From: Reinekea marina
GTDB taxonomy: Bacteria; Pseudomonadota; Gammaproteobacteria; Pseudomonadales; Natronospirillaceae
Length of the DNA stretch: 64,000 nt
Assembly (NCBI RefSeq): GCF_030409715.1
Contig: NZ_JAUFQI010000001.1
Location: forward strand, 558,001 to 622,000
Direction: 5' to 3'
In this document: one piece after another, positions 15,892 through 33,537 of the stretch
How the letters are laid out: every line of letters begins with the position of its first letter
How positions within the stretch are numbered: the stretch's first letter is position 1
The notes under the pieces: generated by a model
What the model was told of the DNA's origin: nothing
The model's input: only the letters and a program-made list of their open reading frames with translations
The model's database searches: none
Position numbers and translations under genes: made by a program

Positions 15892-17496
15892 TTGATTTCT
15901 ACCGCAAACATCACCATGCAGTTTGGTGCGACACCACTGTTCGAAAATATTTCTGCAAAATTTGGCCAAGGCCATCGTTATGGCCTTATCGGTGCGAACG
16001 GCTGTGGCAAGTCTACCTTCATGAAAATTCTCAGTGGAGAACTCACGCCAACGTCGGGTAATGTCTCCATTACGCCTGGGCAAACTATTGGTACCTTGAG
16101 TCAGGATCAATATGCCTTTGAACAGTTTTCGGTTGTCGACGCGGTAATCATGGGTGATAAGCGCTTGTGGAAAATTAAACAAGAACGCGATGCGATTTAT
16201 AGCAACCCAGAAATGACCGAAGAAGACGGCATGCGCGTTGCTGAATTAGAAACCGATTTTGCCGAACTCGATGGTTACACCGCCGAAGCGCGTGCCGAAG
16301 AGCTCTTAAACGAAGCGGGCATCGAGCCTAGCTTTCATTATGGTTTAATGTCGGCCTTAGCGCCGGGTTGGAAGCTACGCGTATTGTTGGTGCAATCTTT
16401 GTTTGCCAACCCCGATATTCTGTTGCTCGATGAGCCGACCAACAACTTGGATATTCACACCATTACGTGGTTAGAAGGTGTGTTGAACCAGCGTAAGTGC
16501 ACCATGATTATTATTTCGCACGATCGCCACTTTTTAAATTCTGTTTGTACACACATGGCCGATATCGATTACGGTGAGTTGCGAATTTACCCAGGTAACT
16601 ACGAAGCATTCATGGCCGCTTCTTCGCTTATTCAAGAGCAGTTGTTGTCTGAGAACGCCAAGAAGAGCGCTGAAATTGATGAACTTCAAGCCTTTGTTAA
16701 CCGCTTTGGTGCCAATGCTTCTAAAGCTAAGCAAGCCAGCTCGCGCGCGAAGAAGATGGAAAAAATTACGTTAGATGAAGTTAAATCGTCGAGCCGTCAA
16801 ACGCCGTCTATTACCTTAAAGCAGCACAAAAAATTACATCGCCAAGCGCTTATTATTGAAGAGCTTTCACATGGTTTCGATGGTGAAATTTTGTTTGAAA
16901 ACGGCAACCTTATTTTAGAAGCCGGTGCGCGTTTAGCCGTTATTGGTGAGAACGGCGCGGGTAAAACCACCTTTCTGCGTTGCTTGATGGATCAGTACGA
17001 AGTGACTGCCGGCACCATTAAATGGTCCGAAAACGCTTCTATTGGCTATTGCCCTCAAGACAGCAGTAATGACTTCGATAACGACTTAACGCTATTTGAT
17101 TGGATGGCGCAATGGCGTTTACCTAAGCACGATGATTTGATGATTCGTGGCATGTTAGGCCGATTATTATTCACCGCCGATGATTTTAATAAAAAAGCGC
17201 GAGTCTGCTCGGGTGGTGAAAAGAACCGCCTATTGTTTGGTAAGTTAATGATGCAAGAAATTAACGTGCTAGTAATGGACGAGCCAACCAACCACATGGA
17301 CATGGAAGCCATTGAAGCGCTGAACAATGCACTACTCGATTTCGACGGTACCTTGATTTTTGTCAGCCACGATAGAGAGTTTGTATCGTCGCTTGCGAAT
17401 CACATTATCGATGTGAAAGACCAACAATTGGTGAGCTTTAAAGGCAGTTATGAAGAGTATGTGGCAGAACGTGGCCGTTTGGCGCTGACCGCCTAA
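15892..17496 (+). CDS. ybiT: ABC-F family ATPase YbiT
   Basis: A soluble protein with two ABC domains and no membrane segments, matching YbiT over its whole length; ABC-F proteins act on the ribosome, probably at the E site. Both Walker A motifs ([20 protein letters not shown]), Walker B/EPTN motifs ([22 protein letters not shown]) and the linker between the domains are present. The first ABC signature is unusual (LAPGWKLR), which is also typical of YbiT. Family alignment starts at [11 protein letters not shown], so the TTG at 15892 is preferred; a GTG in frame at 15850 would add 14 unmatched residues. The 3' end is duplicated at 32.0-33.5 kb. Confidence 0.9.
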
Positions 17497-17497
17497 G

Positions 17498-18496
17498 TTA
17501 GCCTTTTAGTGATTGAACAGACCCGCGGACCACTAAGTTTGGTTTAAACTCCATACCGTGGGGCTGAAGTTTATTATAGAGCTCATCAACGGCCATTCGT
17601 GCGCAGGTACGTGCCATTTGATAAGCGGGGAAGTTCATGGTTGTTAATCTTGGCCGGATATAACTGGCCAAATTTACATCATCAAAGCCAATCACTGAAA
17701 TGTCTTCAGGAACCGACAAACCCTGGTTTGAAGCCCACTCGTAGACACCGATGGCCATTTCATCAGAGCCGGCAACCACCGCCGTAAATGGGATGCCTTG
17801 TTGATGAATCATTTCAATGCCTTTCTGGCCGCCTTCTACCTCAAACAAAGTGCGCGAAATTGCGCCATCAGGAATGGCTAAGTTCGCGTCGGTCATTGCA
17901 GCCACAAAGCCTTCAACTCTCTCATTCGCGTCTTGTTTGTGTGTTTGGCCTCCCACATAAACAATTTTCTGATGGCCTTTATCAATAAGATACCGAGTAG
18001 CGGTATAGGTGCCGCCCTTATTGTCCAGCCACATGTTACGTTTTTCCAACCCATCGATGTGCTGGTTAATCAAATAAATGGGGATTTTATTATTTAAATC
18101 GAATAAATATTCTGCATTCAAGCATTCGGTTAGTAATATAAGCCCGTCAACCTGGCGATTAGAAAGATATTGGATGGCTTCTTTTTCGCCTTCTTCAGTA
18201 CCGTGTCCGCTAGCGATAATGACGTGTTTGTTAAATAGCCGCAGCTCTTCTTCTATACCAGACATCATCGGGCCATAAAATGGACCATCTAGCGAAGCTA
18301 CCACCATTCCTAACGTATTTGATCTACTTGATGCTAGCGATTGAGCCGCGGAATTAGGCTGATAACCAAGCGTTGTCATAGCCGATTTAACTTTCTGGCG
18401 AGTTTGATCCGAAACACGGTCACTGCCATTCATAACACGAGAAACGGTGGCTTGAGATACGCCAGCAAGTTCGGCGACTTCTTTAATGGTTACCAT
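17498..18496 (-). CDS. LacI-family repressor of the beta-glucan locus
   Basis: A 332-residue regulator with an N-terminal LacI helix-turn-helix (TIKEVAELAGVSQATVSRVMNG) and hinge, followed by a periplasmic-binding-protein-like sensor domain from about residue 60. It lies 46 bp downstream of the GH30 gene on the same strand and is probably co-transcribed with it. Three AAGCGCTT-type sites in the GH30/ABC divergent promoter are the obvious operators. The inducer is probably a laminarin oligosaccharide or a breakdown product, by context only. Its stop codon lies 2 bp from the end of ybiT, tail to tail. Confidence 0.88.
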   Translation of the reverse strand: MVTIKEVAELAGVSQATVSRVMNGSDRVSDQTRQKVKSAMTTLGYQPNSAAQSLASSRSNTLGMVVASLDGPFYGPMMSGIEEELRLFNKHVIIASGHGTEEGEKEAIQYLSNRQVDGLILLTECLNAEYLFDLNNKIPIYLINQHIDGLEKRNMWLDNKGGTYTATRYLIDKGHQKIVYVGGQTHKQDANERVEGFVAAMTDANLAIPDGAISRTLFEVEGGQKGIEMIHQQGIPFTAVVAGSDEMAIGVYEWASNQGLSVPEDISVIGFDDVNLASYIRPRLTTMNFPAYQMARTCARMAVDELYNKLQPHGMEFKPNLVVRGSVQSLKG

Positions 18497-18542
18497 AAAG
18501 TACGTTCACTGTTTTAAAATGCAAAAGGCTGCATAGTTTCGA

Positions 18543-19859
18543 TTAAAATACATAAGTTTGAATAGCACGAGCTGCAATTTGTGTTGGTAAATATTGATTA
18601 TTTAGGTTTATTTGGAAATCAACGGGCGTATCGCCAATATTCATTACTATCAAAGAAATCTTAAGGTCTGGTCGTTTAAAAGCAACTACTTTTAATGCAT
18701 CGCGTGGGGATGCAGAAAGAATGCGCTGACTCAACTCGGGGATAAATCGTGGCGATAAATGATTTAAGTAAAGCTGAGAAGGCTGTATATCTATGTCATC
18801 TCCAGAAGCATTGCACAGCACGGGTGCACTGCACAAGTTACCAACATGGTTAGGCCCTCCTTTGCTGTCTAGGAGTAAATTCCAGTCTAACCAGCCGCAA
18901 GTCCACTTATTAAAATCGGATATAATTGAAATACCGTAACGCTCAGCCACCTCCCATTCCCCGGTGTGTGGGCCACCTTCTTGGCAGCCCTCGGTAAACA
19001 GTAAACCTTTGTCTGGGTAGGCATCATGAACAGCTTGTACGTTATCAAATGCGTCATCGACATACCAATGAAAGCCGGCTCCCCAAACGTATTTCGACGC
19101 TTCTGCATCACTATAAATCACACGCGCACGTTGGTATAAATTATCGCGATTGTGATCCCAGCAAATCACCTTAATGTCTTTTAAATTATTGTTGAATAAA
19201 GCGGGTCCTAAGTAGTCACGAATAAAGTCTCGCTCTTCTTCGGCTGAAAAAAGGCAGCTGTCCCAAATTTGTTTAGCTTCGGGTTCGTTCTGAATGGTAA
19301 GCCCCCAAATTTCAAACCCGTTTTCCTGTAGTGCTTTAATGAATTGTACGTAATAGTTAGCCCATTGTGCCCTAAATTCAGGCTTAAGTTGTCCGCCATT
19401 ATTCATTTCACCGTTAGTTTTCATCCATGAAGGAGGGCTCCATGGACTTACGACTAACTTGATTTTTTGTCCGAGAGCGTCTTCAGCATCTCGTATCATG
19501 GGTAAAATAGCTTGTTCATAATGGTCGATAGAAAATTCGCTATCAGGCTTAGATTGGCAATCCCAGTTGCCCAGTGAAAAGTCACAACTGTTCATGTGGA
19601 TGCGACCAATGTTATACCCACTTCCTTTCATCGGATCAAAATAGTTACTTATCAGCTTAGTTTTAGATGCTTTGCTTAAACCTTGATAATTAACCGCTGC
19701 GGATTCTGTAAACGCGCCGCCTAGCCCCAAATGCGTTTGGTAACCTACGTCCGGGTTTATCGATACTTCACATAAATCCATGCGATCAGAGCGCCAATTA
19801 AGTAAAGGTAAGGTTTTTTGTTCTACGCCAGTCTCTTTGCTGGTTTGTACGCATATCAT
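18543..19859 (-). CDS. GH30 beta-glucosidase / beta-1,6-glucanase
   Basis: The 438-residue protein fits GH30 (glucosylceramidase-like clan A). Acid/base Glu192 sits in LTIQNEPEAKQIWDSC and nucleophile Glu290 in LLFTEGCQEGG; the segment VVSPWSPPSWMK is also characteristic. No signal peptide is present, so it should act in the cytoplasm. In laminarin-degrading bacteria GH30_1 enzymes remove beta-1,6 side chains or cleave short beta-glucosides, which fits the neighbouring importer and GH16 and GH149 genes. A ribosome-binding site (TGAGGATT) precedes the ATG. The exact subfamily and linkage are not provable from sequence alone. Confidence 0.85.
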   Translation of the reverse strand: MICVQTSKETGVEQKTLPLLNWRSDRMDLCEVSINPDVGYQTHLGLGGAFTESAAVNYQGLSKASKTKLISNYFDPMKGSGYNIGRIHMNSCDFSLGNWDCQSKPDSEFSIDHYEQAILPMIRDAEDALGQKIKLVVSPWSPPSWMKTNGEMNNGGQLKPEFRAQWANYYVQFIKALQENGFEIWGLTIQNEPEAKQIWDSCLFSAEEERDFIRDYLGPALFNNNLKDIKVICWDHNRDNLYQRARVIYSDAEASKYVWGAGFHWYVDDAFDNVQAVHDAYPDKGLLFTEGCQEGGPHTGEWEVAERYGISIISDFNKWTCGWLDWNLLLDSKGGPNHVGNLCSAPVLCNASGDDIDIQPSQLYLNHLSPRFIPELSQRILSASPRDALKVVAFKRPDLKISLIVMNIGDTPVDFQINLNNQYLPTQIAARAIQTYVF

Positions 19860-19928
19860 ACATTAATCCTCAAAATGGCAGGTTAAAAACTAGTTGACCA
19901 AACGAATTTCAAACACTATTGTGGCCAA

Positions 19929-19997
19929 TGTAAGCGCTTTCATTGATTTGGTCAAATGAATAGCGCTTTTAAATTGAAGCAAGTGTAAGCGCTTTCA
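19929..19997. promoter_or_regulatory. three LacI-type operators in the divergent laminarin promoter
   Basis: TGTAAGCGCTTTCA occurs identically at 19929-19942 and 19984-19997, and a shorter AGCGCT-centred relative (ATAGCGCTTTTA) lies at 19960-19971. Centres are 29 and 26 bp apart. The palindrome is the classical LacI/GalR-family site. The cluster lies between GH30 (minus) and the binding-protein gene (plus), so one repressor could shut both operons. Confidence 0.85.
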
Positions 19998-20076
19998 TTT
20001 TGGTTGAACAAGCCTATGAGCCGTTGTTGGAAGCCTTGATAAAACCTATTGAAAACAAGAATAAATGAGGTAAGAC

Positions 20077-21729
20077 ATGAAAAAATTAACTTCTGTCATT
20101 GCTATTACTGCAGTTGCTGCAGGTATTTCAATGAATGTCCAGGCCGCTCAGCATAAGCAAGGCGGTACACTGACGGTCCCTTTAATCGCCACAACCTTTA
20201 TTGAAGATTTTAATCCATTAAACGGGGTACAAGCCGACATGGTATCGGGCACGATGTACGAGCCGTTATGGATTTACAATACAATTAAAGGCGACATTGA
20301 CTATCGTCTGGCAGAAAGCTTTGAATACGCCGACGATAAAAAATCAATCACCATTAAGCTGCGAGATAATCTTACCTGGTCTGATGGCCAGGTATTGGAT
20401 GCCGATGACCTAGCGTTCTCGTTAAACTTAGGCAAAGAAGACCCTAAATTAGATCTCGCTGGCCAATGGGCCAACGGTGTGATCAAAAACGTTGAAAAGA
20501 TCAACAACACCAGTGTTAGAGTAAACTTTAACGATGTAAACACCACCGTAGATTGGTATTTGCCTGCGATGTGGGTTGTGCCTCAGCATGTTTTCTCAAG
20601 CGTTAAGGATAAGATTCTATTCACCAACCCGAACCCGGTTGGTTCTGGACCGATTACAGAAGTTAAATCAGTAAAAACCAACCAAGTAGAAATATGCCGC
20701 AATCCAAATTATTACAAGGCCGATCAAGGCTTGCCTTATCTCGATTGCATTAAGTTCCGTCAGTATTCTGATAACTCGCAAATACTGCCTGCGCTTATGA
20801 ATGATGAAATTGATTGGGGTTCTAACTTTGTAGCCGATATTGATAAAACTTACGTGAAATCAAACCCTGATACACACGGTTATTGGTACCCTGCCAACGA
20901 TCTTTGGAACATGTATCTAAACACTCGAAAGGCGCCGTTTAGCGACATTAACTTTCGCAAAGCTTTCTCCATGGCGATTGACCGACCAACCATTGTTGAT
21001 TTAGCCGCTTATGGGTACCCAACGGCAGAAGAAACGGTTGTTGGGTTAGGGCAGTTACATGCTGCCTCTATGGATAAAAAGATTAATAAAAAGTACGCAA
21101 AACTAGCCACTTATGATCCAAAAGAGTCAACCAAGCTACTTAAGAAAGCCGGCTATAAAGATGTTGATGGTGATGGATACCTAGAAAATCCTGATGGTTC
21201 AAAAATTGATTTTGAAATTATGATTCCAGCCGGTTGGACCGATGTTGTACAGATGGTGCAGATCACTACCGAATATTTAGACGAGATTGGCATAAAAGCC
21301 AGCACAAAGCTTGTGGATTGGTCAGCCTATGATTCAGCCGCCAAAGATGGAACTTATGATGTAATTTTCAATTGGTCAGCGACAAATCAGGTAGCCGCGA
21401 TTAATGCCTATAGAGAATATTATCACCCAGCACGAGTTGGTCAGATTTGGCATGCCGGGCATGGCATGGCGTCTGATGAGCTTGGTGCATTGGTCGATGA
21501 ATATGGTGTGATCGATGATCCTAAGCGACGTCAAGAGATTCTAAATGAATTGATGATCTTTACCGCAGAAAACTTACCGTTCATTCCTGTTATGTCGAAT
21601 GCAACCTGGTTCCAATACAACACGACTCGTGTTGAAGGCTTTCCAACGGAAGAAAATCCTTATGTTCGCCCAGTATTCTATGATGGCGGCACTAAGCTGA
21701 TTGTCTTTGAAAACCTATACGCGAAATAG
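20077..21729 (+). CDS. ABC transporter family-5 solute-binding protein (oligosaccharide)
   Basis: The 550-residue periplasmic protein has a signal peptide (cleavage near VQA-A) and the SBP_bac_5 fold of peptide/nickel-type binding proteins (early GGTLTV strand, LSWSDG-like LTWSDGQVLDADD, LNTRKAPFSDINFRKAFSMAIDR). Members of this family in glycan loci bind beta-gluco-oligosaccharides rather than peptides. Here the operon with two permeases, two ATPases and laminarin enzymes makes a beta-1,3-gluco-oligosaccharide ligand likely. A perfect hairpin follows the gene, which usually favours higher binding-protein level. Confidence 0.88.
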   Translation: MKKLTSVIAITAVAAGISMNVQAAQHKQGGTLTVPLIATTFIEDFNPLNGVQADMVSGTMYEPLWIYNTIKGDIDYRLAESFEYADDKKSITIKLRDNLTWSDGQVLDADDLAFSLNLGKEDPKLDLAGQWANGVIKNVEKINNTSVRVNFNDVNTTVDWYLPAMWVVPQHVFSSVKDKILFTNPNPVGSGPITEVKSVKTNQVEICRNPNYYKADQGLPYLDCIKFRQYSDNSQILPALMNDEIDWGSNFVADIDKTYVKSNPDTHGYWYPANDLWNMYLNTRKAPFSDINFRKAFSMAIDRPTIVDLAAYGYPTAEETVVGLGQLHAASMDKKINKKYAKLATYDPKESTKLLKKAGYKDVDGDGYLENPDGSKIDFEIMIPAGWTDVVQMVQITTEYLDEIGIKASTKLVDWSAYDSAAKDGTYDVIFNWSATNQVAAINAYREYYHPARVGQIWHAGHGMASDELGALVDEYGVIDDPKRRQEILNELMIFTAENLPFIPVMSNATWFQYNTTRVEGFPTEENPYVRPVFYDGGTKLIVFENLYAK

Positions 21730-21741
21730 TTAGTTGATCAA

Positions 21742-21771
21742 AGTGGATTAAAAATATTTTTTTAATCCACT
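21742..21771 (+). promoter_or_regulatory. intercistronic hairpin after the binding-protein gene
   Basis: A perfect 13-bp inverted repeat (AGTGGATTAAAAA/TTTTTAATCCACT) with a 4-nt loop stands between the binding-protein and first permease genes. It can act as a partial terminator or an mRNA 3' stabiliser, giving more binding protein than permease. Confidence 0.65.
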
Positions 21772-21878
21772 CTCTAGACCGTGGTCTGCAGTGACTGGCG
21801 ATAGCCAATGGCAGACCCTTTGTAACGATCTTACGAACTCTAATCATACCTGGAAGTTCTGTATAAGAGGAATGCGTA

Positions 21879-22853
21879 ATGGGTTTTATCCTAAGACGAT
21901 TAGGCTTTTATTTGGTGGCTATATTTGTAGCGATTACTTTCAATTTTGTGCTGCCCCGATTGATGCCTGGTGATCCTGTTGATGCCCTGTTCATTGCCGC
22001 AGGCGGGAAAATGTCTATTGAGCAGCTTTCTGCGTTTAAAGAGATGCTCGGTTTTGTCGACGGTCCACTATGGGTGCAGTACCTTCAGTATTTAAAGAGT
22101 GTACTTACGCTGGATCTTGGTCCCACCATCATGCTGTTTCCTACAGAGGTAAAGCTGGTTCTCAATAATACGCTGCCTTGGACTTTATTCTTGGTGGGCC
22201 TTGCATCCATTACGTCTATCGTTGCTGGGTGCATGATTGGACTGTATGCCTCATACAACAGGGGCGGCCTATTTGATCGCTTCATGCCAGTTTCATTACA
22301 ATTTTTAGCTTCTATTCCGCAAGCCGTCACGGCGTTGTTTATTTTCTTTATATTTGCCGTAACGTTGAAGTGGTTCCCGTTAGGCTTTGCTTCAAATCCA
22401 GATTTAGATGTTGGTTGGAATTGGCCGTTCATTAAAAGTGTGGGGCACCACGCTGTTCTTCCTTTAGTGACGCTTGTTGGATCAATGTTAGCCACCTGGG
22501 TGTTTACCATGCGCAATGCCATGGTCAATATTTTAGGTGAAGATTACATTACGATGGCAAAAGCAAAAGGGCTTAGTGATCGACGCATCATGACACACTA
22601 TGCCGCCCGAAATGCAATATTGCCAGTTGTTACGGCCATTTCTATGGCACTGGGGTTAGCGGTAGCAGGGCAAGTCATTGTTGAACAAGTTTTTAACTAC
22701 CCAGGCATTGGGCAGCTCATTATTAAATCTGTCTCCGCACGAGATTACCCGCTAATGCAAGCTACCTTTTTATTGATCGTATTGTGTGTGTTGATTGCAA
22801 ATTTCATTGCGGACTTATTGTATTTGATCCTAGACCCTCGTCTTCGAAAATAA
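21879..22853 (+). CDS. ABC transporter permease, DppB/OppB type
   Basis: The 324-residue inner-membrane permease has six predicted helices and the BPD_transp_1 EAA loop (EDYITMAKAKGLSDRRIMTHYAARNAILP). The start MGFILRRLGFYLV and an N-terminal region ending in PGDPVD are typical of the DppB branch. It is the first of two permeases of the putative laminarin-oligosaccharide importer and follows the binding protein after a 149-bp gap containing a hairpin. Confidence 0.9.
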   Translation: MGFILRRLGFYLVAIFVAITFNFVLPRLMPGDPVDALFIAAGGKMSIEQLSAFKEMLGFVDGPLWVQYLQYLKSVLTLDLGPTIMLFPTEVKLVLNNTLPWTLFLVGLASITSIVAGCMIGLYASYNRGGLFDRFMPVSLQFLASIPQAVTALFIFFIFAVTLKWFPLGFASNPDLDVGWNWPFIKSVGHHAVLPLVTLVGSMLATWVFTMRNAMVNILGEDYITMAKAKGLSDRRIMTHYAARNAILPVVTAISMALGLAVAGQVIVEQVFNYPGIGQLIIKSVSARDYPLMQATFLLIVLCVLIANFIADLLYLILDPRLRK

Positions 22854-22918
22854 ATATTCGTTTTTATCTTTTAAAAGTAAACGAGTCATTAAGTGAATCT
22901 AAATGAGAATTTAGCGTT

Positions 22919-23845
22919 ATGAAACTAATTAAAAACTTTAAGGTATCTGCTGGCCGATTTTTCAAAGGCAACCCGGCGGGTATCATTGGCGCGTCGATAG
23001 TGTCACTGATCATTATTGCTTGCTTAGCAGCGCCTATTTTAACCGATAAAGATCCAAATCGCCGAGTAGCACGGGGTCACCAACCTCCTTCTTCAGAGTT
23101 ATGGTTTGGCTCAACTCGAGCGGGCAAAGATGTCTTTAGCCAAGTTTTATATGGCGGCCGAGTGTCATTAACGGTCGCGTTTTCGGCCGCCCTTACCACA
23201 ACTATTTTAGCGTTGCTCATCGGTGTTACCAGCGGTTATGTCGGCGGGAAAATAGATGAAATTATGATGGCCATTACCAATGTGTTTCTTGTGCTACCTC
23301 AACTGCCATTACTGATTATTCTCGCAGCGTTTTTAGGCGAGGTTGGCCCCTTAATTATTTCGTTGATCATTGGCTTCACTTCTTGGCCCTGGGGCGCACG
23401 CGTCATGCGTTCACAAACATTAGTGATTCGACAAAAAGAATTTATTACTTCTGCCGAGGTGATGGGGGAAAGTAAGTGGCGGATCATTCTGATTGAGATC
23501 ATACCCAACCTTATCTCTTTGGTTGCCGGTATGTTTATCGGAACTGCCTTATACGCTATTGGCATGCAAGTCACCTTAGAATTCTTAGGGCTAGGCGATG
23601 CCTCCGTAGTGTCGTGGGGAACGATGCTGTATTGGGCACAAGCTACGGCGGCCCTTTATGTCGGAGCCTGGTGGGATTTTGTCATTCCAGGATTATTTGT
23701 CGCTTTCGTCGGTGGTGGTTTAGCGCTCTTAAATATCTCAATTGATCAAGTATCAAACCCCAAACTGCGAACCGGCACCTATATAAAAATTTGGAAGCGA
23801 ATGAAAGCTGAAATTGATGCTAAGCGAAAAGGAGTTCAGTCATGA
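22919..23845 (+). CDS. ABC transporter permease, DppC/OppC type
   Basis: The 308-residue partner permease has an N-terminal OppC-type helix (GNPAGIIGASIVSLIIIACL) and an EAA-like loop (VMRSQTLVIRQKEFITSAEVMGESKW). Its stop overlaps the next ATPase start by four bases (ATGA), indicating translational coupling within the operon. Confidence 0.9.
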   Translation: MKLIKNFKVSAGRFFKGNPAGIIGASIVSLIIIACLAAPILTDKDPNRRVARGHQPPSSELWFGSTRAGKDVFSQVLYGGRVSLTVAFSAALTTTILALLIGVTSGYVGGKIDEIMMAITNVFLVLPQLPLLIILAAFLGEVGPLIISLIIGFTSWPWGARVMRSQTLVIRQKEFITSAEVMGESKWRIILIEIIPNLISLVAGMFIGTALYAIGMQVTLEFLGLGDASVVSWGTMLYWAQATAALYVGAWWDFVIPGLFVAFVGGGLALLNISIDQVSNPKLRTGTYIKIWKRMKAEIDAKRKGVQS

Positions 23846-24834
23846 CAGAACTACAGCGCCCTTTGCTGCAAATTAAAAACGTTTGCGTTGACTACGTGAC
23901 TAACCAAGGAAATGCACGCGCTTGTGATCATGTTTCGTTTAACATTTATCCTGGTGAAACGGTGGGGCTTGCGGGTGAATCTGGCTGTGGTAAGAGCACT
24001 CTGGCGTTTGCTATTTCCAATTTGCACAGTGCGCCCGCATTAATTACAGATGGCGAAATATTATTTGAAGACCGCGATGTATTGAAAATGAACCAAGAGG
24101 AATTGCGCCGCTTTCGTTGGAATGAAACGGCCATGGTTTTTCAAAGCGCAATGAATTCATTGAACCCTGTTATTACCATTGGCGAACAGCTAGTAGATGT
24201 TGTACTGGCTCATAAAAATGTGTCTAAAGCAGAGGCCATCGCTAAAGGTGAAACATTGTTGGAAACCGTGGGTTTGCACCCTTCTCGAATGAACTCCTAT
24301 CCTCATCAATTGAGTGGTGGCATGCGCCAACGAGTGGTGATTGCCATCGCCCTTATATTACGACCAAAGCTGATCATCATGGACGAACCTACAACGGCCT
24401 TAGATGTTGTTGTAGAGCGCGACATTATGGACGAACTTTTCGAACTTAAAGACAAGTTTGGTTTTGCAATTTTATTTATTAGCCATGACCTTGGGCTCAT
24501 GGGAGAAATTGCGGATCGCATTGGCATTATGTATGCCGGAAAGTTAGTTGAATTGGGCTCGGCAAAAGACGTATTAGAATCGGCTGAGCATCCCTATACC
24601 AAAGGTTTGGTTGGGTCTTTCCCTACCATCCACGGTCCGAAAGTTAGGCTTGAAGGCATTCCAGGAAGCCCTCTGAATTTATTGGAAACACCACAAGGCT
24701 GCTACTTCCAAGCACGCTGCAAATCCTGCATTGAGAGTTGCAAATCAATAGAGCCTGAATTAACCGGGTTAACCCAGAACGCAAATCGACTTGTCGCGTG
24801 TCACGTCGTTCACGATAGAGGAGCTTCCGTATGA
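23842..24834 (+). CDS. ABC transporter ATPase, DppD/OppD type
   Basis: A 330-residue cytoplasmic ATPase with Walker A (GESGCGKST), signature (LSGGMRQR), Walker B (LIIMDEPTTALD) and the OppD C-terminal extension with clustered cysteines (CYFQARCKSCIESCKS), commonly an iron-sulfur site in this family. It overlaps both neighbours by four bases. Confidence 0.92.
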   Translation: MTELQRPLLQIKNVCVDYVTNQGNARACDHVSFNIYPGETVGLAGESGCGKSTLAFAISNLHSAPALITDGEILFEDRDVLKMNQEELRRFRWNETAMVFQSAMNSLNPVITIGEQLVDVVLAHKNVSKAEAIAKGETLLETVGLHPSRMNSYPHQLSGGMRQRVVIAIALILRPKLIIMDEPTTALDVVVERDIMDELFELKDKFGFAILFISHDLGLMGEIADRIGIMYAGKLVELGSAKDVLESAEHPYTKGLVGSFPTIHGPKVRLEGIPGSPLNLLETPQGCYFQARCKSCIESCKSIEPELTGLTQNANRLVACHVVHDRGASV

Positions 24835-25826
24835 ACGCGGCTAAGAAAGCATTTATGAGTGAAAAGCCAAGTATCTATGTTGAAGATCTCGTCATTGATT
24901 TTGCCTTAGATAATGCAATTTTTAATAAGCAATATATGAGGGCGGTTAACAAGGTAAGTTTTATTTTGAAAGCGGGTGAGGCGTTAGCGATCGTCGGCGA
25001 GTCAGGCAGTGGAAAAAGTACCTGTGCCCGAGCCTTATGCCGATTATACCAACCGACCAGTGGCAATATTTGGCTGCAAGATATCAATGTAAATGAAAAA
25101 AAGAACCAGATGAATCAGCGCGATTATGCCAAAGAAGTTCAAATGATCTTCCAAGATCCATTTGGTTCTCTTAACGCAGTACATACGATTCATCACCATC
25201 TCGCAAGACCATTAAAAATTCACCACCCGAGTTTATCGGTTGATGAAATCGAGAAACGAGTAATAGAGCTTTTGGAGCGGGTAGGGTTAACGCCGGCTAA
25301 GCAAACGGCGAATAAATACCCTCACGAGCTATCGGGCGGCCAACGGCAGCGAGTTTCAATTGCAAGAGCATTGGCCGTTGGAGCCAATTTTATTTTAGCC
25401 GACGAGCCGATATCGATGCTCGATGTCTCAATTCGATTGGGCATTCTCAATTTGATGGAAGACATGAAGCAAGATGGCATTGGTTTTATGTACATCACTC
25501 ACGATATTGCCACTGCTCGCTATTTTGCAGAGCGCACGGCCGTGATGTATGTAGGGCATATGGTTGAGTGGGGTAATAGCGATTCTGTTACTCAAAACCC
25601 CCAGCACCCTTATACCCAATTACTCATTTCTGCTGTCCCAGAGCCAGGCATTCGAAAAGAGCGCACAGAGATGGCGAAGAAAGCAGAGATACCTTTGTGG
25701 AAACCAGAAAGTAAAGGCTGTCCTTTTGCAAACCGATGTTTAAAGGCGGTCGAAGAATGCCGAGAAAGTATGCCGCCGGTGACACAGCTGGCCGAAGATC
25801 ACTTTGTTCGTTGTTACCTTTACTGA
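24831..25826 (+). CDS. ABC transporter ATPase, DppF/OppF type
   Basis: The 331-residue second ATPase has Walker A (GESGSGKST), signature (LSGGQRQR), Walker B (FILADEPISMLD) and a C-terminal oligopeptide/dipeptide-type extension with cysteines (GCPFANRCLKAVEEC). The ATG overlaps the preceding stop (ATGA). It completes a two-permease, two-ATPase importer. Confidence 0.92.
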   Translation: MNAAKKAFMSEKPSIYVEDLVIDFALDNAIFNKQYMRAVNKVSFILKAGEALAIVGESGSGKSTCARALCRLYQPTSGNIWLQDINVNEKKNQMNQRDYAKEVQMIFQDPFGSLNAVHTIHHHLARPLKIHHPSLSVDEIEKRVIELLERVGLTPAKQTANKYPHELSGGQRQRVSIARALAVGANFILADEPISMLDVSIRLGILNLMEDMKQDGIGFMYITHDIATARYFAERTAVMYVGHMVEWGNSDSVTQNPQHPYTQLLISAVPEPGIRKERTEMAKKAEIPLWKPESKGCPFANRCLKAVEECRESMPPVTQLAEDHFVRCYLY

Positions 25827-25872: not shown

Positions 25873-28473
25873 ATGAAAAATATAAAAACAAAATCAACAT
25901 CGTTGTTGGCTATGTCAGTCGTAGCTTTAACCTTCATAAGTTGCAAGCCATTCGAAAAGCCGTTTGATCCGGATAAAAAAGGCTGGACGCTCGTATTTTC
26001 AGATGAATTTGACGGCCAGTACATTGATGACAATAAATGGGCTTTCGAGGTCAATTGTTGGGGCGGTGGTAACAACGAAGCGCAATGTTACACCGATCGC
26101 CCAGAGAACGCTTACGTAGAAGATGGCGTGTTAACCATTAAAGCGATTCGAGAAGCGTATACTGGGCCCGTGTATAACCCTGATGACCCGCGCTACGATC
26201 CTAGTAACATGAATACCAAATCATTCACGTCTGCGCGCTTACGTTCAGTTAGTCCTGTTGAGTACATCGATGGTCAACCTGCGCAATTTAATTTTGAAAA
26301 TGACTGGAAATATGGACGCTTTGAAATTAGAGCTAAGCTGCCATCGGGGCAAGGTACTTGGCCTGCCATTTGGATGCTACCAACCGATTGGGAATTCGGT
26401 GGTTGGGCGATGTCTGGGGAAATAGACATCATGGAAGCCGTTAATTTGAAATCAACTTATGTTGATGAAGAAACCGGTGAAACAAAAGTCGAAAACCGTG
26501 TCCATGGAACATTGCATTATGGTCGCGCCTGGCCAGGAAACGTATATTCAGGTGTTGAATATGACTTTGGCGATGAACGCATTAACCCTTCGGATGACTT
26601 TCATATTTATTCAATTGAATGGGAAGAGGGTGCCATTCGTTGGTTTGTGGACAATCATCACTATGCCACTCAAACGCAAGAAGGTTGGTATACCCATTAT
26701 AAAGATGAAAACGGTGTATGGCGCAGCAGTGAGATGACACCTGCACCGTTTAATCAAAACTTTCACTTAATTATGAATTTAGCTATGGGTGGAAACTGGG
26801 CTGCGAATGTTAATGAAGGCGGAATCGACCCGGCCATTAACGAAGCTGAATTGCTAATTGATTACGTACGTGTGTATCAGTGCGAAAAAGATGAAACCGG
26901 TGTCGCGTGTGGTAGCAAAGGCAAAGAAGGATCTTACACGTTAGAAAGTGGTGTGGTAGAGCCTGAATTGCCGATCGCGGCAGATTTTAACGCCGATCCG
27001 CTCGTTATCTTTGACGGCCAGCTAGCCGCCAATTGGCAAATGGCAAAGTGGGATGATGCCGACGGCGGTGATGAATACGCCATTAGAGATGGATTAATTG
27101 ATTTAAAATTTGATCAAACGGGCGTGATGTATTTATACGGCGATCAAGGCAATACATTTGATGCAACTCCCTATGGTGGCGGAGAATACCGATTTAAAAT
27201 TCGATGGGTCGATGGCGATGCGACGGGTTTGAAAGTTGGGTTCAGTAACACCGCGGGAAGTTTCGCTCATGTCGTGCTGGATCAACAATATTTTGGAATG
27301 AAAGGCGCTGAAGGTTGGACAGATGTTGTGATTCCTGTTTCAGATATGCTTCTAAATGCCCCCGGATTCGACTTAACCAGCGTTGATATTTCAGGAAAAT
27401 TCGAACAAGTTGGCGGGTCACAGCTGAACATTCAAATTAAAGATTTACAAATGAGTAAAGGAGAATACGTTCCAATTGAAACCGATGCCTACGGTTATGA
27501 GCTGGAACTCCTTACAGAAACAATAGGCTCTGGATTTGATGCCTATTTATACCATGGCTATGGTGAAGCCAGTACCGACTCTTTAACAATTATCGAGGGT
27601 GTCATGTCTGGCCAACACAATGGCGGAGGCAATATTTCAATTGGCTCTACTTCTGGCCATATTGATTTATCCGCGTTCGCTCAAGGTCAACTTAATTTTG
27701 AATTACGTATCGCCAGCTTTGGCAGTGCCGCGGATGTCTTAGTTAAAATGGACGGTGGTTGGCCAAACGTTGGTGACGTTGCTTTAAGTGAGACACCAAC
27801 GGGCATGCCTACTAACAACGAGTGGCACTCCTACTCGGTCAACGTTGCAGATTTTGTTGCCAATAATAACCGATTAGATGGCAGCGGGAATTTTGAATTG
27901 AGTCACGTTATTAACCCGTTTGTTATTGAAGCTTTCGGTGGTGGAGATCTACATGTAGACGTACGCAACGTAACGCTCACTCGCCCATTACACTTATTAA
28001 GCACTGAATTCGCAGCAGGCTTTGATGGCTTTTTATACCACGGCTATAACGAGCCTTGGACCGATACGCTTACAATTTCGAATGGTGTCATGAATGGCAC
28101 CCACTCAGGCGGTGGAAACATTTCTATAGGAAGCTCTGGCGCAGCAGTAGATCTAAGCAGCTTAGCAAACGCCGATATCGCGTTCGATTTGAGGATTGTC
28201 AATCAAGGCAGCGCGAGCGATGTGCTCATTAAAATTGATAGCGGTTGGCCTAACCTAGGTGATGTTGCTTTAAGTGAAACAAGCCAGAGTATGCCGATTG
28301 ATTCAAACTGGGTTTCTTATGCGATACCGGTGAGTCAATTTGTTGCAAACAATAACCGCTTAGATGGCAGTGGTGTATTGAACTTAAGTTCGGTCATAAA
28401 CGCTTTTGTAGTTGAAGCATTTGGTGGGGGCGATCTTGAAGTAGAAGTTCGCAATGTTCGTTATCAGTTCTAA
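25873..28473 (+). CDS. Lipoprotein GH16 endo-beta-1,3-glucanase (laminarinase)
   Basis: The 866-residue protein has a signal with a lipobox-like FISC (Cys25), so it is probably lipid-anchored at the cell surface or in the periplasm. The GH16_3-type domain spans about residues 36-345, with the catalytic motif GEIDIMEA (Glu183, Asp185, Glu188) and the GTWPAIWMLP strand. A beta-sandwich of the galactose-binding-like type follows (about 375-530), then two tandem copies of another module (about 545-700 and 708-866), each with GF-D-x-LYHGY, GGGNISIGS and a shared NNNRLDGSG segment. These are probably glucan-binding modules. Laminarin is the likely substrate; the binding specificity of the tails is unknown. 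Confidence 0.88.
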   Translation: MKNIKTKSTSLLAMSVVALTFISCKPFEKPFDPDKKGWTLVFSDEFDGQYIDDNKWAFEVNCWGGGNNEAQCYTDRPENAYVEDGVLTIKAIREAYTGPVYNPDDPRYDPSNMNTKSFTSARLRSVSPVEYIDGQPAQFNFENDWKYGRFEIRAKLPSGQGTWPAIWMLPTDWEFGGWAMSGEIDIMEAVNLKSTYVDEETGETKVENRVHGTLHYGRAWPGNVYSGVEYDFGDERINPSDDFHIYSIEWEEGAIRWFVDNHHYATQTQEGWYTHYKDENGVWRSSEMTPAPFNQNFHLIMNLAMGGNWAANVNEGGIDPAINEAELLIDYVRVYQCEKDETGVACGSKGKEGSYTLESGVVEPELPIAADFNADPLVIFDGQLAANWQMAKWDDADGGDEYAIRDGLIDLKFDQTGVMYLYGDQGNTFDATPYGGGEYRFKIRWVDGDATGLKVGFSNTAGSFAHVVLDQQYFGMKGAEGWTDVVIPVSDMLLNAPGFDLTSVDISGKFEQVGGSQLNIQIKDLQMSKGEYVPIETDAYGYELELLTETIGSGFDAYLYHGYGEASTDSLTIIEGVMSGQHNGGGNISIGSTSGHIDLSAFAQGQLNFELRIASFGSAADVLVKMDGGWPNVGDVALSETPTGMPTNNEWHSYSVNVADFVANNNRLDGSGNFELSHVINPFVIEAFGGGDLHVDVRNVTLTRPLHLLSTEFAAGFDGFLYHGYNEPWTDTLTISNGVMNGTHSGGGNISIGSSGAAVDLSSLANADIAFDLRIVNQGSASDVLIKIDSGWPNLGDVALSETSQSMPIDSNWVSYAIPVSQFVANNNRLDGSGVLNLSSVINAFVVEAFGGGDLEVEVRNVRYQF

Positions 28474-28488
28474 CTGAATCGTAAAATA

Positions 28489-28594: not shown

Positions 28595-31500
28595 ATGGTA
28601 ATGCTTTTAAAAGACAGTGATGCTGCGGTAAAGTCACGATCCAACTTAGACGTTCACGGAGCGTTTTGTACTTATCGTGGTCAACGATTTTACCAAATCA
28701 CCAATTACCACAGAATGAGCAACTTCTTTATGTCCGTGGTAAGCGCCTATGACCACTGGTTATTTATTTCCAGCAACGGTGGGTTAACCGCTGGCCGGCA
28801 ACATTCAGATCGAGCGCTGTTCCCTTATTACACAGAAGATAAAATAACGGATATGGCGCATTGCACGGGTCCTATGACCTTAATAAAAGAAAACGGTCAA
28901 TTGTGGCAGCCATTTCAGACTAATGCGTTAGTGGAAGATTTTGACAACAGATCACTCTATAAAAGCACGTTGGGTGATCAACTGTTTTTCAGTGAATCAA
29001 GAAACGGTCTGACCTTTGAGTACGGCTGGTCATTCAGCAATCTGCATGGCATTGTGCGTTCAGTGACACTGCGTAATGAAAGTGAATTGCCGCGTGACAT
29101 ATCATTTTTAGATGGACTGCAGAATATTATTCCAGCAAACATCACAGCAGAATTACAAAATGACAACAGTGTGTTGCTTGATGCCTATAAATCGGCTGAC
29201 TGCTATCAAAATAACCTAGCCGCTTTCTATATGAGTTCTAGGCTGACTGATTTAGCCGAACCTTCCGAGAGTTTGCTGGCGAATAGCGTTTGGCACTGCA
29301 TCGAGGAAAATCGTTTCAGTGCAAAGGTTAGCTTAAGTGAAAATGCACCAAAACAATTTGCCGCAAATACAAACGTAGACACAAATGTCCAGCAAAGAGG
29401 TAAGCGAGGTAGCTATTTTATAACAGCAGACATCACTTTAGCGCCGGGAGAGCAAATACAATGGATGCAAGTCTGTGAAGTCACGCAAGATGGTCCAAGT
29501 ATTCAACAATTAATTAAACAAGTGTCTGCAGATGGGTTGTTTTCTCAAGTAAGCGAAGACGTTCGTAGCGGGTCACATAGCTTAGAGCAGTACTTGGCAA
29601 AAGCCGACGGTATACAAACTTCTGACGACGAACTAGCAACCGTTCATCATCAAGCCAATACGCTATTTAATATAATGCGCGGGGGCTTATTTACACAAGG
29701 CTACTCGATAATGCGCCGTGATCTGTTGGCCTTTGTAAGTCAACGTCAAAAAAGATTGGCGGAACATGATTGGTGGGCGACTGTGCCAGAATCTGTATCT
29801 ATATCAGAGCTACGTGACCTATTAAATACATGCCATTCAACTGATTTAAAGCGTATTGCTAACGAATATCTGCCGATCAGTTTTAGCCGTCGTCACGGTG
29901 ACCCTAGCCGACCTTGGAATAAGTTTTCGATCAATCTAAGAGACACCGATGGCGTGCCGATCAAGGACTATCAGGGTAATTGGCGCGATATATTTCAAAA
30001 CTGGGAGCCACTGGCGCTTTCTTATCCAAAATATTTGCCCTCTATGATCAGTGCGTTTTTGAATGCAACCACGACGGATGGTTACAATCCTTATCGGGTA
30101 ACCCGCAATGGGATTGAATGGGAAACCCCTGAGCCAGATAATGATTGGGCGAATATTGGGTATTGGAGTGACCACCAAATAATTTATCTTTCTAAACTCA
30201 TAGAGCTTCAAGTTTCCATGAATCCAAAATGGATTACCGAAAACCACCATCAAGCCCAGTTTAGCTATGCAAATGTTCCTTATAGAATTAAATCGTTCAC
30301 ACAACTAAAAGATAACCCGTACGACAGTATTAAGTTTGACGATGCTCTCAACGATTTAATCAACTCAACAGTTGAAAAAATGGGCAGCGACGGCAAGCTG
30401 CTACTGGATTCAGAACAAAAGGTTATACACGGCAATTTAATTGAGAAACTGCTGACACTGTGGTTGGCTAAGCTGAGCAACTTTGTGCCCGATGGTGGTA
30501 TTTGGATGAACACGCAACGCCCTGAATGGAACGACGCGAATAATGCATTAGCGGGCTGGGGCTTGTCTGTTGTGACCGTTGCCTATTTACATCGACATTT
30601 GCTCTTTATGCGTAAAGCCTTAAGAGAGGTTAAGGGGACTATTGAGATTAGTGAATCTGTTTTTAATTGGTTTGAGCAGATCCGCTCGCAGTATTTACAT
30701 ATTCCTAACCAGTTGGATTCAAAAAAGCGCTTTGGATTTTTAGAAGCAAGCTCGAATGCCGCTGATGTCTATAGAGCGGAAGTCTATGCAAATGGATTAT
30801 CCAACGTCAAAGCTTCGCTCGCGCTATCCGGAATCGTTGAATTTTTAGATCAAGTGCTGCCCGTTCTTGCCGCTACATTACACAATAACCGCCGTAAAGA
30901 TGGCCTGTACCATGGGTATAATATTTTACATCTAAGTGACTTAGCTGCCGAGGTGACACATTTACCGCTCATGCTTGAGGGTCAAGTCGCCATGTTATCT
31001 GCTAATGTGTTGAACCCAAGTGAAAGTCTTCAATTGCTCAACTCATTGCGAAGCAGTGATTTATATCGTGAAGACCAACACACCTACCTCCTATATCCTA
31101 ATAAAAGCCTGACGCAATTTATTGATAAAAACTGCATAGAATCGAAAGATCTTAGCGCATTAAATCAAAGCAAATCAGAACTGTTAAAACATCGAATTCT
31201 GACGGAAAGTGAAGCGGGACTCTTTCACTTTAATGCCAATTTTCGCAATGCTAAAGATTTAGCGCAGCGTTTGTCAGACGTAAATATACAAGAGCCAGAT
31301 AAACTACGCTTATTCGAATTATTTGAAAAAACATTTAATCATAAGTCCTTTACTGGACGCTCGGGGTCGTTTTTCGGCTACGAGGGATTAGGCAGCACCT
31401 ATTGGCATATGGTGTCTAAATTGTTGCTAGCCGCGCAGGAAAATTGGTTTGTTGCTCACACAGAACATAGCGAAACTGCAATTGAACTCAAAAAAGCCTT

Positions 31501-32002
31501 TTACGATATTCGCGCTGGAATTGGCTTTAATAAAACACCTGAGCAATATGGCGCGTTTCCGACCGATCCTTATAGCCACACGCCGGAATCCGGCATAGCT
31601 CGGCAACCGGGAATGACAGGGCAAGTTAAAGAAGAGCTCATCACTCGCTTAGGAGAGTTTGGTATCAGGTGGCAAGATGGCCATATTGAAATTGTTCATG
31701 GACTGTTAGCAGAGCACGAATTCTTAACAGAACCAAATACCTTTAACTACTTGGATGTGCATGATCAGTGGCAAAGCATGCCTCTAGAAACAGGGTCGCT
31801 CGCGTTCACCTTGGCACAAGTGCCTTTTGTGTATCGGGCTGTTTCGGGTGAGCAATTGAAAATTCAAGTAATCACGGCCGATGAGACAACTTTTGAAATG
31901 GCAAACAACAAGTTGACACCTTTTGTTGTGAAAAGGCTTATCGAGCGCGATGGCATTCTTAAAGCAATTTTTGTGAATTACCCATGTTCTCACAATGGCT
32001 AA
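28595..32002 (+). CDS. GH149-like beta-1,3-glucan phosphorylase
   Basis: A 1135-residue cytoplasmic protein without signal peptide. The architecture is that of inverting beta-glucan phosphorylases related to GH94: a long N-terminal beta-sandwich, then an (alpha/alpha)6 barrel with the conserved EWNDANN segment, whose Asp647 matches the GH94 catalytic acid. A length above 1100 residues and the context of a laminarin operon favour GH149 (known beta-1,3-oligoglucan phosphorylases) over GH94 or GH161. The reaction would be phosphorolysis of beta-1,3-gluco-oligosaccharides to glucose-1-phosphate, saving ATP. Family assignment is from memory and size, so GH161 or a new relative is not excluded. The stop is about 8 bp before the ybiT remnant. 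Confidence 0.75.
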   Translation: MVMLLKDSDAAVKSRSNLDVHGAFCTYRGQRFYQITNYHRMSNFFMSVVSAYDHWLFISSNGGLTAGRQHSDRALFPYYTEDKITDMAHCTGPMTLIKENGQLWQPFQTNALVEDFDNRSLYKSTLGDQLFFSESRNGLTFEYGWSFSNLHGIVRSVTLRNESELPRDISFLDGLQNIIPANITAELQNDNSVLLDAYKSADCYQNNLAAFYMSSRLTDLAEPSESLLANSVWHCIEENRFSAKVSLSENAPKQFAANTNVDTNVQQRGKRGSYFITADITLAPGEQIQWMQVCEVTQDGPSIQQLIKQVSADGLFSQVSEDVRSGSHSLEQYLAKADGIQTSDDELATVHHQANTLFNIMRGGLFTQGYSIMRRDLLAFVSQRQKRLAEHDWWATVPESVSISELRDLLNTCHSTDLKRIANEYLPISFSRRHGDPSRPWNKFSINLRDTDGVPIKDYQGNWRDIFQNWEPLALSYPKYLPSMISAFLNATTTDGYNPYRVTRNGIEWETPEPDNDWANIGYWSDHQIIYLSKLIELQVSMNPKWITENHHQAQFSYANVPYRIKSFTQLKDNPYDSIKFDDALNDLINSTVEKMGSDGKLLLDSEQKVIHGNLIEKLLTLWLAKLSNFVPDGGIWMNTQRPEWNDANNALAGWGLSVVTVAYLHRHLLFMRKALREVKGTIEISESVFNWFEQIRSQYLHIPNQLDSKKRFGFLEASSNAADVYRAEVYANGLSNVKASLALSGIVEFLDQVLPVLAATLHNNRRKDGLYHGYNILHLSDLAAEVTHLPLMLEGQVAMLSANVLNPSESLQLLNSLRSSDLYREDQHTYLLYPNKSLTQFIDKNCIESKDLSALNQSKSELLKHRILTESEAGLFHFNANFRNAKDLAQRLSDVNIQEPDKLRLFELFEKTFNHKSFTGRSGSFFGYEGLGSTYWHMVSKLLLAAQENWFVAHTEHSETAIELKKAFYDIRAGIGFNKTPEQYGAFPTDPYSHTPESGIARQPGMTGQVKEELITRLGEFGIRWQDGHIEIVHGLLAEHEFLTEPNTFNYLDVHDQWQSMPLETGSLAFTLAQVPFVYRAVSGEQLKIQVITADETTFEMANNKLTPFVVKRLIERDGILKAIFVNYPCSHNG

Positions 32003-32101
32003 CTCTCTTGAAAACGTACTGGTCGTGGATGAGCCAACTAACCACAGGTTCATGGAAGCCCTTGAAGTGATCTTCCCCCGATAAAATGGACACCTCGGGA
32101 T

Positions 32102-32989
32102 TCACGCTGCCATTTGTTCATAATTAATTGGTGACATATACCCAATACCTGAGTGTAACCTCACCGTATTGTAAAATTTATTTATATACCTGCTAAGCTC
32201 AGATCGCAACTCTTCTATTCCTTTAAAATAGGTTTGCCGGATTAACTCACCTTTTAAGGAATGGTAAAACGATTCCATGAACGCATTGTCTGTACAATGT
32301 CCTGGTCGATTGACACTGTGATGCATACCATATTTTACCAATTCAGATTGAAAGACCGAGCCCGTAAATTCAACACCTCTATCGGTGTGAAAAATAACAT
32401 TTTTTGGGTTTCGCCCTTTTTTAATGACATACCTTAAAGCGGTTGTCGTTAACTCCGTTGTTCTAGAATAGGATAATGACCAACCCAATATCCGGCGCGA
32501 GTATTGATCCATGATCGTTGCTAAATACGTCCACTTTCCTTGTAATTTAATATAGGTTACATCGGCGACCCAAACTTGATCCGGTGCCGTTGCAGCGTCG
32601 CGCGCTAATAATCGATTTTCACCTTTCGCTATGAAGCGTTTAAGTCCTGGCATTCGCCGCGTTACTTTGGTGACCCTGGCTTTGAGCCCTGCTTCACGCA
32701 TTAGCCGCTCGACACGCTTCTTAGCGATGCGGTAACCGCTCTGACGCAGGGATTCATAGACTCTAGGACTGCCATATCGTCCGTGACTGTCGTCAAATAT
32801 CTTCGTGATCTGTTTTAACAATTGCTGATCGGACAATGCCCGATCTGTTGTCCCTCGCTGACGCCATGCATAGTAGCCGCTGGGCGATACCTGCATCCAA
32901 CGACAAAGGTTACGTACCCCTATTTCTTTTCCGTATCTGTGGATGAACCCAAATCGTTCTGATGTTGATCCGCCAGATACTGTTGCCAC
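32102..32989 (-). CDS. IS3-family transposase OrfB (DDE integrase domain)
   Basis: The 295-residue frame holds the HTH_21-like region and the rve DDE catalytic core: Asp in VWVADVTYI, Asp in IFHTDRGVEFT and Glu in DNAFMESFYHSLKGE. It begins with an internal GTG at 32989, immediately after the slippery heptamer AAAAAAG (32989-32995, minus strand), so it is probably made mainly as an OrfAB fusion by -1 frameshifting. All catalytic residues are present, so the element may be active. Confidence 0.93.
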   Translation of the reverse strand: MATVSGGSTSERFGFIHRYGKEIGVRNLCRWMQVSPSGYYAWRQRGTTDRALSDQQLLKQITKIFDDSHGRYGSPRVYESLRQSGYRIAKKRVERLMREAGLKARVTKVTRRMPGLKRFIAKGENRLLARDAATAPDQVWVADVTYIKLQGKWTYLATIMDQYSRRILGWSLSYSRTTELTTTALRYVIKKGRNPKNVIFHTDRGVEFTGSVFQSELVKYGMHHSVNRPGHCTDNAFMESFYHSLKGELIRQTYFKGIEELRSELSRYINKFYNTVRLHSGIGYMSPINYEQMAA

Positions 32990-33294
32990 TTTTTTAGAAG
33001 GTCATTTTCCCTCTTTAATCTATCGATTTCTTTTTTTAACTGAGCGTTCTCAGTTATTTGCTTCGCCGATTTCACTTTGCGTTTCTTTGACAAACCTACT
33101 CGCCTTTTTCCATCACCTTGAAGATGGCCTTCTCGATACTCTTTGCGCCAACGGGACAACATAAATGGATGAATACCCAAGCCTTCCGCAACCTGAGAAC
33201 TTTTAATATCAGGTTGATAGCTCATTTTAACAGCTCGAACTTTAAACTCTGTTGAATACTGCCACGTTTTACGTGGATTATTATACTTTGGCAA
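32920..33294 (-). CDS. IS3-family transposase OrfA
   Basis: A 124-residue protein with an N-terminal helix-turn-helix (YSTEFKVRAVKMSYQ...QVAEGLGIHPFMLSRWRKEYREG) followed by a leucine-rich coiled coil (QLKKEIDRLKRENDLLKK), as in other IS3 OrfA proteins. It overlaps OrfB by 70 bp, with an A6G slip site near its 3' part (LLKKW). Confidence 0.93.
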   Translation of the reverse strand: MPKYNNPRKTWQYSTEFKVRAVKMSYQPDIKSSQVAEGLGIHPFMLSRWRKEYREGHLQGDGKRRVGLSKKRKVKSAKQITENAQLKKEIDRLKRENDLLKKWQQYLADQHQNDLGSSTDTEKK

Positions 33295-33537
33295 AATTAC
33301 CTCCAGATGCGTTATCTAGAGGTGTCCACTAAAACGGGGGAAGTTCAAAGCGCTCAATAACGCCTTGTTAAATTTTGACGGTACGTTGATTTTTGACAGC
33401 CACGATAGAGAGTTCGCATCTTCATTAGCCAATCACATTATTGATGTGAAAGGCCAGCAATTGGTGAGTTTTAAAGGCAGTTATGAAGAGTATGTGGCGG
33501 AGCGTTCAAAGCAAGCTCAGGTGGCCTAAATTGGCGC

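Follow-up and report, generated by a model that had tools for sequence, protein, structure and literature searches.

Two diverged 3′ ends of ybiT bracket a putative laminarin island in Reinekea marina

When Escherichia coli received a linearised plasmid with one homologous end, 56 of 60 recombinants gave the polymerase chain reaction product of a partial duplication, and the 14 clones that were sequenced carried target-gene duplications of 109 to 950 bp; the cited passages of that study explain these duplications by trimming, recircularisation and a single crossover (PMC3240628). The same passages place homology-facilitated illegitimate recombination, or trimmed-circle integration, in Streptococcus pneumoniae, Acinetobacter baylyi, Pseudomonas stutzeri and E. 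coli (PMC3240628). Here we describe a locus in Reinekea marina, within a stretch of 64,000 nucleotides (the window; contig NZ_JAUFQI010000001.1, positions 558,001 to 622,000), where an island of genes with a predicted role in laminarin use directly follows a complete ybiT gene and is itself followed by a second, diverged ybiT 3′ end. We consider it likely, though well short of certain, that the island and its own ybiT end came from a related lineage and were inserted through recombination within the 3′ end of ybiT, by which the native end was displaced.

The locus resembles the experimental system, as far as the cited passages describe it, in showing an additive integration via homology at one gene, with a partial duplication (109 to 950 bp there, about 89 to 250 bp here). 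The differences are that the ybiT case is read from sequence only, that its insert is ~14.5 kb long with edges almost exactly at gene ends, and that the two ends differ by ~20%. It also resembles the icd prophage islands, for which the relevant part of the source reports a target gene kept whole by a new 3′ end, its old end lying beyond the island (PMC10111431). Unlike those islands as described there, it has no integrase and a low identity between ends, and different target genes are affected in one genome. The type of event is already known; the footprint left here is unusually clear.

Coordinates are those of the window unless a contig is named; G000 denotes the strain's own genome (C1 being its contig) and G003 a genome listed as the same species (Table 1). 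The intact ybiT gene encodes an ABC-F ATPase that scored 943 bits (cut-off 762) against the NCBIfam model NF011646, "ABC-F family ATPase", which, with PRK15064, we take to be YbiT. Its stop codon (17494-17496) is separated by 1 bp from the stop of a convergent lacI gene, which begins at 17498. At the other edge, the GH149 gene stops at 32000-32002 and homology to ybiT begins at 32013, 10 bp further on. This remnant comprises the last 78 codons of ybiT (234 bp, stop at 33527-33529); 185 of its 234 bases (79.0%) equal those of the intact end, with a longest exact match of 29 bp. The insert is therefore bracketed by a direct repeat of part of ybiT, of which one copy is intact and the other truncated. 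Because the ybiT pair (reported as 158 nt) is the longest of five direct-repeat families of at least 50 nt in the window, we do not attribute it to chance.

An insertion sequence (IS) of the IS3 family splits the remnant. Its inverted ends (34 bp) are 79% complementary, and it is flanked by AAG at 32065-32067 and 33348-33350, a target duplication. G000 holds five copies, the one in the remnant included, with ~100% identity, and the transposase lies in the remnant and thus outside the island. An earlier reading of the window, made from its letters alone (the sequence-only reading), had noticed the bracketed island, which our analysis confirmed, as it did the estimate that the two ends are about 80% identical. 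It had correctly placed the island against ybiT and a second 3′ end after the last island gene, but the gap is 1 bp, not 2, and the second end spans 78 codons, 10 bp away, not 75 codons some 8 bp away; it had also taken the remnant as unbroken, overlooking the 1,280-bp element.

We then compared the remnant with other ybiT genes. G000 has two full ybiT-like genes, the B-type copy of the window and an A-type copy ~260 kb off (1,015 bits against NF011646, cut-off 762), which share 62% protein identity. The remnant is 79.0% identical to the intact B-type end and 55.7% identical to the A-type gene. Its identity was 63.9 to 66.5% to the B-type ybiT of three congeners and 55.7 to 58.0% to five A-type copies. 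The sequence-only reading had proposed a check for grouping with a paralogue; the remnant groups instead with the ybiT of the window, and the values of 79.0% and 55.7% rule out an origin from the A-type gene.

Silent changes between the remnant and the intact end number 28.7 over 49.2 sites and other changes 20.3 over 184.8, a silent divergence (dS) of 1.13 and a divergence at other sites (dN) of 0.119; for the intact ends of G000 and G003, dS is 0.16 and dN is 0. Because the remnant and the intact end differ mostly at silent sites, they look like two old functional alleles brought together. Judging by this pattern, most of the divergence appears to have arisen while each end was part of a functioning gene in a lineage of its own; so silent a pattern would not be expected of a pseudogene copy that had stayed where it was. 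The same values rule out a recent or decayed tandem copy and bear out the earlier judgement that the ends are too different for a recent tandem duplication.

G003 has the same nine-gene island, collinear at 96.4% identity between flanks of ~96%, with identical left and right island edges, and so the insertion is probably older than the split between the two strains. The match ends at position 32011, and close identity returns from 34546, on the side of the gene that we take to be glnS. In the same place after the island, G003 carries a shorter ybiT remnant of ~90 bp with an in-frame stop. Over 91 bases this remnant matches that of G000 at 73 positions and the intact ends at 63 to 64, and the G000 remnant matches the intact ends at 71 to 72 of the same 91. 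Since the differences between the two remnants are mostly silent (11.3 of 19.0 silent sites and 6.7 of 71.0 others changed), the remnants appear to come from lineages with a whole ybiT.

The lipoprotein-like gene next to the remnant has only 48 to 49% identity between G000 and G003, and this divergence ends abruptly in near-identical DNA towards glnS. Divergence of this kind within one species points to allele swapping or strong diversification. Because each remnant retains its own lipoprotein gene beside it, the ancestral order was, on this indirect evidence, probably ybiT-lipoprotein-glnS; the two diverged pairs of ybiT end and lipoprotein gene suggest that ybiT formerly adjoined the latter. 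In one or both strains, a diverged allele probably replaced the remnant-lipoprotein block later. Diverged alleles of ybiT itself do recombine in the species, as indicated by a tract at 16702-17061: four of 18 bins of 90 bp are only 81 to 91% identical to G003 there, against 94 to 100% in the other 14, consistent with introgression of a diverged ybiT allele.

Folding predictions were made for the DNA after each gene end. A predicted hairpin, a candidate native terminator, directly follows the G000 remnant, and another follows that of G003 (z −3.60); after the stop of the intact ybiT there is none (z −0.28). These predicted folds fit a remnant that sits in its native 3′ context.

The same footprint occurs at two more genes of G000. 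In the window, two copies of the 3′ end of an amylase/pullulanase-like gene (7165-7253 and 8421-8509), 92% identical, bracket a CPBP/Rce1-like protease gene. The corresponding locus of G003 has, in the stretch covered, one gene end and no cargo, and the flank with its hairpin resembles that of the displaced copy. The second gene is yicC, whose duplicated 3′ ends (225 of 237 bases alike) bracket a small helix-turn-helix gene; in G003 we found no match to this cargo and, in the 1.5 kb covered at yicC, one yicC end. G003 does contain 57 bp that match the DNA flanking the displaced yicC end, at a distance of 14.5 kb from its yicC and with no piece of yicC adjoining them. The inserts measure ~1.2 kb (amylase-like) and ~0.7 kb (yicC), the protease and helix-turn-helix genes being the open reading frames (ORFs) found in them, and the duplicated ends in all three cases, ybiT included, are about 89 to 250 bp long.

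The island itself consists of nine genes (lacI, GH30, five ABC transporter genes, GH16 and GH149) in ~14.5 kb. The top NCBIfam match of the GH30 gene is endo-1,6-beta-glucanase, under the cut-off of that family. A role in laminarin use is suggested by the families. The enzyme content is like that of gammaproteobacterial laminarin clusters with GH16, GH30 and others, as characterised in the passages cited (PMC8371827), and a GH149 phosphorylase stands alongside; unlike the clusters described there, this one has an oligopeptide-type ABC transporter. Its lacI stands to the left of GH30, not directly behind GH149 as in two congeners.

Table 1. Coordinates of the features at ybiT and at the two other genes with duplicated 3′ ends
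Feature	Position	Strand	Basis or remark
Intact ybiT (ABC-F ATPase), B type	15892-17496	+	ORF start 15850 (GTG)
lacI-type regulator, convergent with ybiT	17498-18496	−	Pfam LacI
GH30 glucanase-like enzyme	18543-19859	−	Pfam PF02055
Oligopeptide/oligosaccharide-type ABC transporter, five genes	20077-25826	+	ORF calls and Pfam
ABC binding protein	20077-21729	+	
ABC permeases	21879-22853 and 22919-23845	+	
ABC ATPases	23842-24834 and 24831-25826	+	
GH16 family glucanase	25873-28473	+	Pfam PF00722
GH149 1,3-beta-glucan phosphorylase, final island gene	28595-32002	+	NF058639, 1381 bits, cut-off 1150
ybiT remnant, piece 1	32013-32067	+	matches ybiT 17263-17317
IS3-family insertion sequence splitting the remnant	32068-33347	.	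1280 bp
IS3 transposase ORFs	32102-32989 and 32920-33294	−	NF033516, 304 bits
ybiT remnant, piece 2, through stop codon	33348-33529	+	33348-33350 = AAG target duplication
Hairpin after remnant, candidate native terminator	33529-33582	+	fold of 33520-33600: −26.6 kcal/mol, z −3.04
Lipoprotein-like gene (by eye), adjoins remnant	33581-34378	−	no Pfam or NCBIfam match
Presumed glnS, beyond lipoprotein-like gene	34622-36295	+	ORF call
Amylase/pullulanase-like displaced 3′ end (last 28 codons + stop)	7165-7253	−	repeat search, fold
Cargo: CPBP/Rce1-like protease gene	7252-8082	−	no copy at site in G003
Intact amylase/pullulanase-like gene with attached 3′ end	8422-10593	−	
yicC	G000 C1:145872-146735		Pfam YicC
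yicC remnant	G000 C1:144946-145194		brackets small helix-turn-helix gene

A course of events that would give this arrangement is as follows. The donor would have been a related lineage in which ybiT, or its 3′ end, was joined to the laminarin island. Its DNA would have entered an ancestor of the species and undergone homologous recombination inside the resident ybiT 3′ end, so that the resident gene kept its own promoter and most of its length and gained the donor 3′ end together with the island. The native ybiT end and its hairpin would have been shifted ~14.5 kb downstream, to the lipoprotein-like gene and glnS. Such an event would not require an integrase and could have followed either of two routes, one crossover with a circularised donor molecule (Campbell type) or the entry of a linear donor with one homologous and one illegitimate end. 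Decay of the displaced end would have come later, through the IS3 element in the G000 strain and through shortening to a remnant with an in-frame stop in G003, and a diverged allele would have taken the place of the remnant-lipoprotein block in one strain or both. DNA uptake by competence is possible. The sequence-only reading had called the incoming segment foreign; "from a related lineage" describes it better, given that homologues of the island binding protein in three congeners (G001, G002 and G005) show 66 to 78% identity and that the island has no clear shift in GC content.

Several observations weigh against this account. A search of the genus, seven genomes in all, placed B-type ybiT in five (G000, G003, G005, G002 and G001), with neighbours that, G003 apart, were not common to the species, and it gave no island-free relative with ybiT beside the lipoprotein gene or glnS; the 20-kb stretches around glnS in five congeners held no ybiT. 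The direction of displacement, with the remnant native and the attached end foreign, is unproven, as no island-free strain with the order ybiT-lipoprotein-glnS was found. The earlier proposal of recombination within ybiT that left a remnant is partly supported, by the type of the remnant, its divergence, its hairpin and the G003 locus, but it lacks that relative. The missing GC shift also counts here. A scan for the T-run terminator consensus found no site after the remnant and one weak site spanning the intact ybiT stop (17484-17502). Within the remnant, a run test for a crossover tract was negative (p 0.21; at most 9 codons in a row unchanged), and the ComEC/Rec2-like genes of G000, G003 and G002 all score below the cut-off for their family. 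At the amylase-like gene, the displaced and attached ends are equally far from G003 (77 of 89 each) and a strong hairpin follows the attached end as well (z −3.32), so that the native end there would be marked by its flank only and not by identity. At yicC, the displaced end matches G003 at 217 of 237 bases and the attached end at 218 of 237, which leaves the native end undecided by identity, and no strong hairpin is seen (z −1.95 for the displaced end, −1.01 for the attached end). Finally, two of the five matches in the protein screen of G000 described below (543926 and 545012) lie in one cargo-rich stretch and perhaps record one event.

We also weighed three other explanations. An integrase could have made the island at an att site in the ybiT 3′ end, supplying a replacement end as at E. 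coli icd, and could later have been lost. The outcome at icd looks alike, and the pertinent section of the source gives intragenic att identity blocks of up to ~250 bp, with a replacement sequence on attP (PMC10111431), a length that the remnant of 234 bp would fit. Against this, ORF, Pfam and tRNA scans gave no tRNA in the window and no integrase among the genes of the island, all nine of which recur in G003. Identity between the ends is only 79%, with no exact match longer than 29 bp; the footprint is also seen at the amylase-like gene and yicC, around small inserts with protease and helix-turn-helix ORFs; and it is found at none of 80 other ybiT loci. We regard an integrase-made island as unlikely.

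A second possibility is that the remnant is the newcomer, brought in with a lipoprotein allele from another species by recombination on the glnS side, and that the intact ybiT end is native. In keeping with this, the remnant-lipoprotein block is the part that varies between strains, sharply bounded from 32011 to 34546. A ybiT remnant stands, however, at the same place in both strains and so probably predates any swap, and the donor of the swap would itself need a ybiT next to the lipoprotein gene. We think this improbable as a full explanation; a swap of this kind may have taken place in one strain alongside the recombination within ybiT.

An old tandem duplication, in which the copies diverged in place, the island then entered between them and the second of them became truncated, would provide two B-type ends in one place without a donor, and the G003 remnant is nearer to the G000 remnant (73/91) than to the intact ends (63-64/91), as alleles of one old copy could be, but the low dN relative to dS would need a second copy that was functional for long and no pair of such copies occurs in the 20 kb fetched from any of the three congeners that have B-type ybiT, which makes this history improbable too.

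The sequence-only reading had further suggested that ybiT 3′ ends are a general docking site for such islands. No second ybiT 3′ end was found in any of 80 named genomes, searched up to 10 kb on either side of ybiT and less for some, and no ybiT was found around the islands of the congeners in the stretches fetched (for G005, two pieces at contig ends). With the islands lying elsewhere in congeners, we reject ybiT as a general docking site for this sample. The lacI gene is placed differently too: it comes after GH149 in G001 and G002, but left of GH30 and in the opposite orientation here. In one of the 80 loci, that of marine gammaproteobacterium HTCC2143, a relative of GH149 (41%) lies ~5.8 kb upstream of a ybiT whose end is not duplicated.

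Duplicated gene ends were sought more widely by two screens. In the protein screen, full proteins were compared with DNA in both orientations for partial copies of at least 25 amino acids and at least 60% identity, spanning at most 60% of the query and lying within 30 kb of it; genes under 120 amino acids were left out and proteins with more than eight other such copies dropped. It returned five partial copies in 1.26 Mb of G000 (12.5 kb masked), all five of them 3′ ends in direct orientation, and the same five in 860 kb. In G002 (0.8 Mb, 5 kb masked) there was one direct 3′ copy and one direct internal copy. The 80 named loci, covered by pieces of up to 21.7 kb that add up to 1.54 Mb, yielded one direct 3′ copy, 20 stretches from congeners and the family (0.38 Mb) one direct 3′ copy and one direct 5′ copy at a stretch edge, and 60 kb of G003 the ybiT pair. 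No inverted copies were found in the protein screens of G000, G002, the 80 loci or the 20 stretches. The DNA screen covered 860 kb of G000 (7.5 kb masked) in plus orientation only and gave 27 direct pairs. These included tandem repeats, copies of IS elements, pairs lying outside ORFs and a few at a 5′ end (734210, 613361 and 544076).

From these screens the docking idea, which fails for ybiT, weakly survives for gene 3′ ends in general. That gene 3′ ends across the genus are, as a rule, places where new genes can enter without an integrase is a tentative proposal, which we hold to be possible and on balance doubtful. DNA of relatives would be added behind a resident gene, the donor end would complete that gene, and the old end with its terminator would be pushed outward; selection against the breakage of promoters would account for the bias toward 3′ ends and direct copies. 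The counts are small, and four of the five events in G000 fall within 48 kb. The G000 rate, ~0.04 events per 20-kb window, predicts ~3 in the 80 loci against the one seen, a difference that is not clear.

Other repeats were noted along the way. The cargo-rich stretch is G000 C1:543926-558308, which includes window positions 1-308; it has three copies of the 3′ end of a 156-amino-acid ORF and two of that of a 207-amino-acid ORF, which by eye resembles a lipoprotein gene. A ~55-bp repeat at G000 546456, which we presume to be attC-like, recurs across genomes of the genus and had no clear match near an integron integrase. Integron integrase genes lie far from the window, at G000 C1:2194030-2194959 and G003 C1:155499-156416 (384 bits, cut-off 265). 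Window positions 55342-55759, a GC-richer spot, contain direct-repeat pairs (50 and 137 nt, 93 to 96%), and a further difference from G003 is an indel of ~0.66 kb at 5269-5931, with an ORF at 5400-5969 and short matching ends.

The ybiT locus suggests how a genome may acquire a complete pathway for the use of a sugar with no mobile element involved. The footprint of such an event, two gene-end alleles with different histories, could be read and dated. If gene 3′ ends do act as general entry points, each such pair would be a readable fossil of gene gain driven by recombination, and the 3′-end pattern would offer a simple screen for gene gains in any genome.

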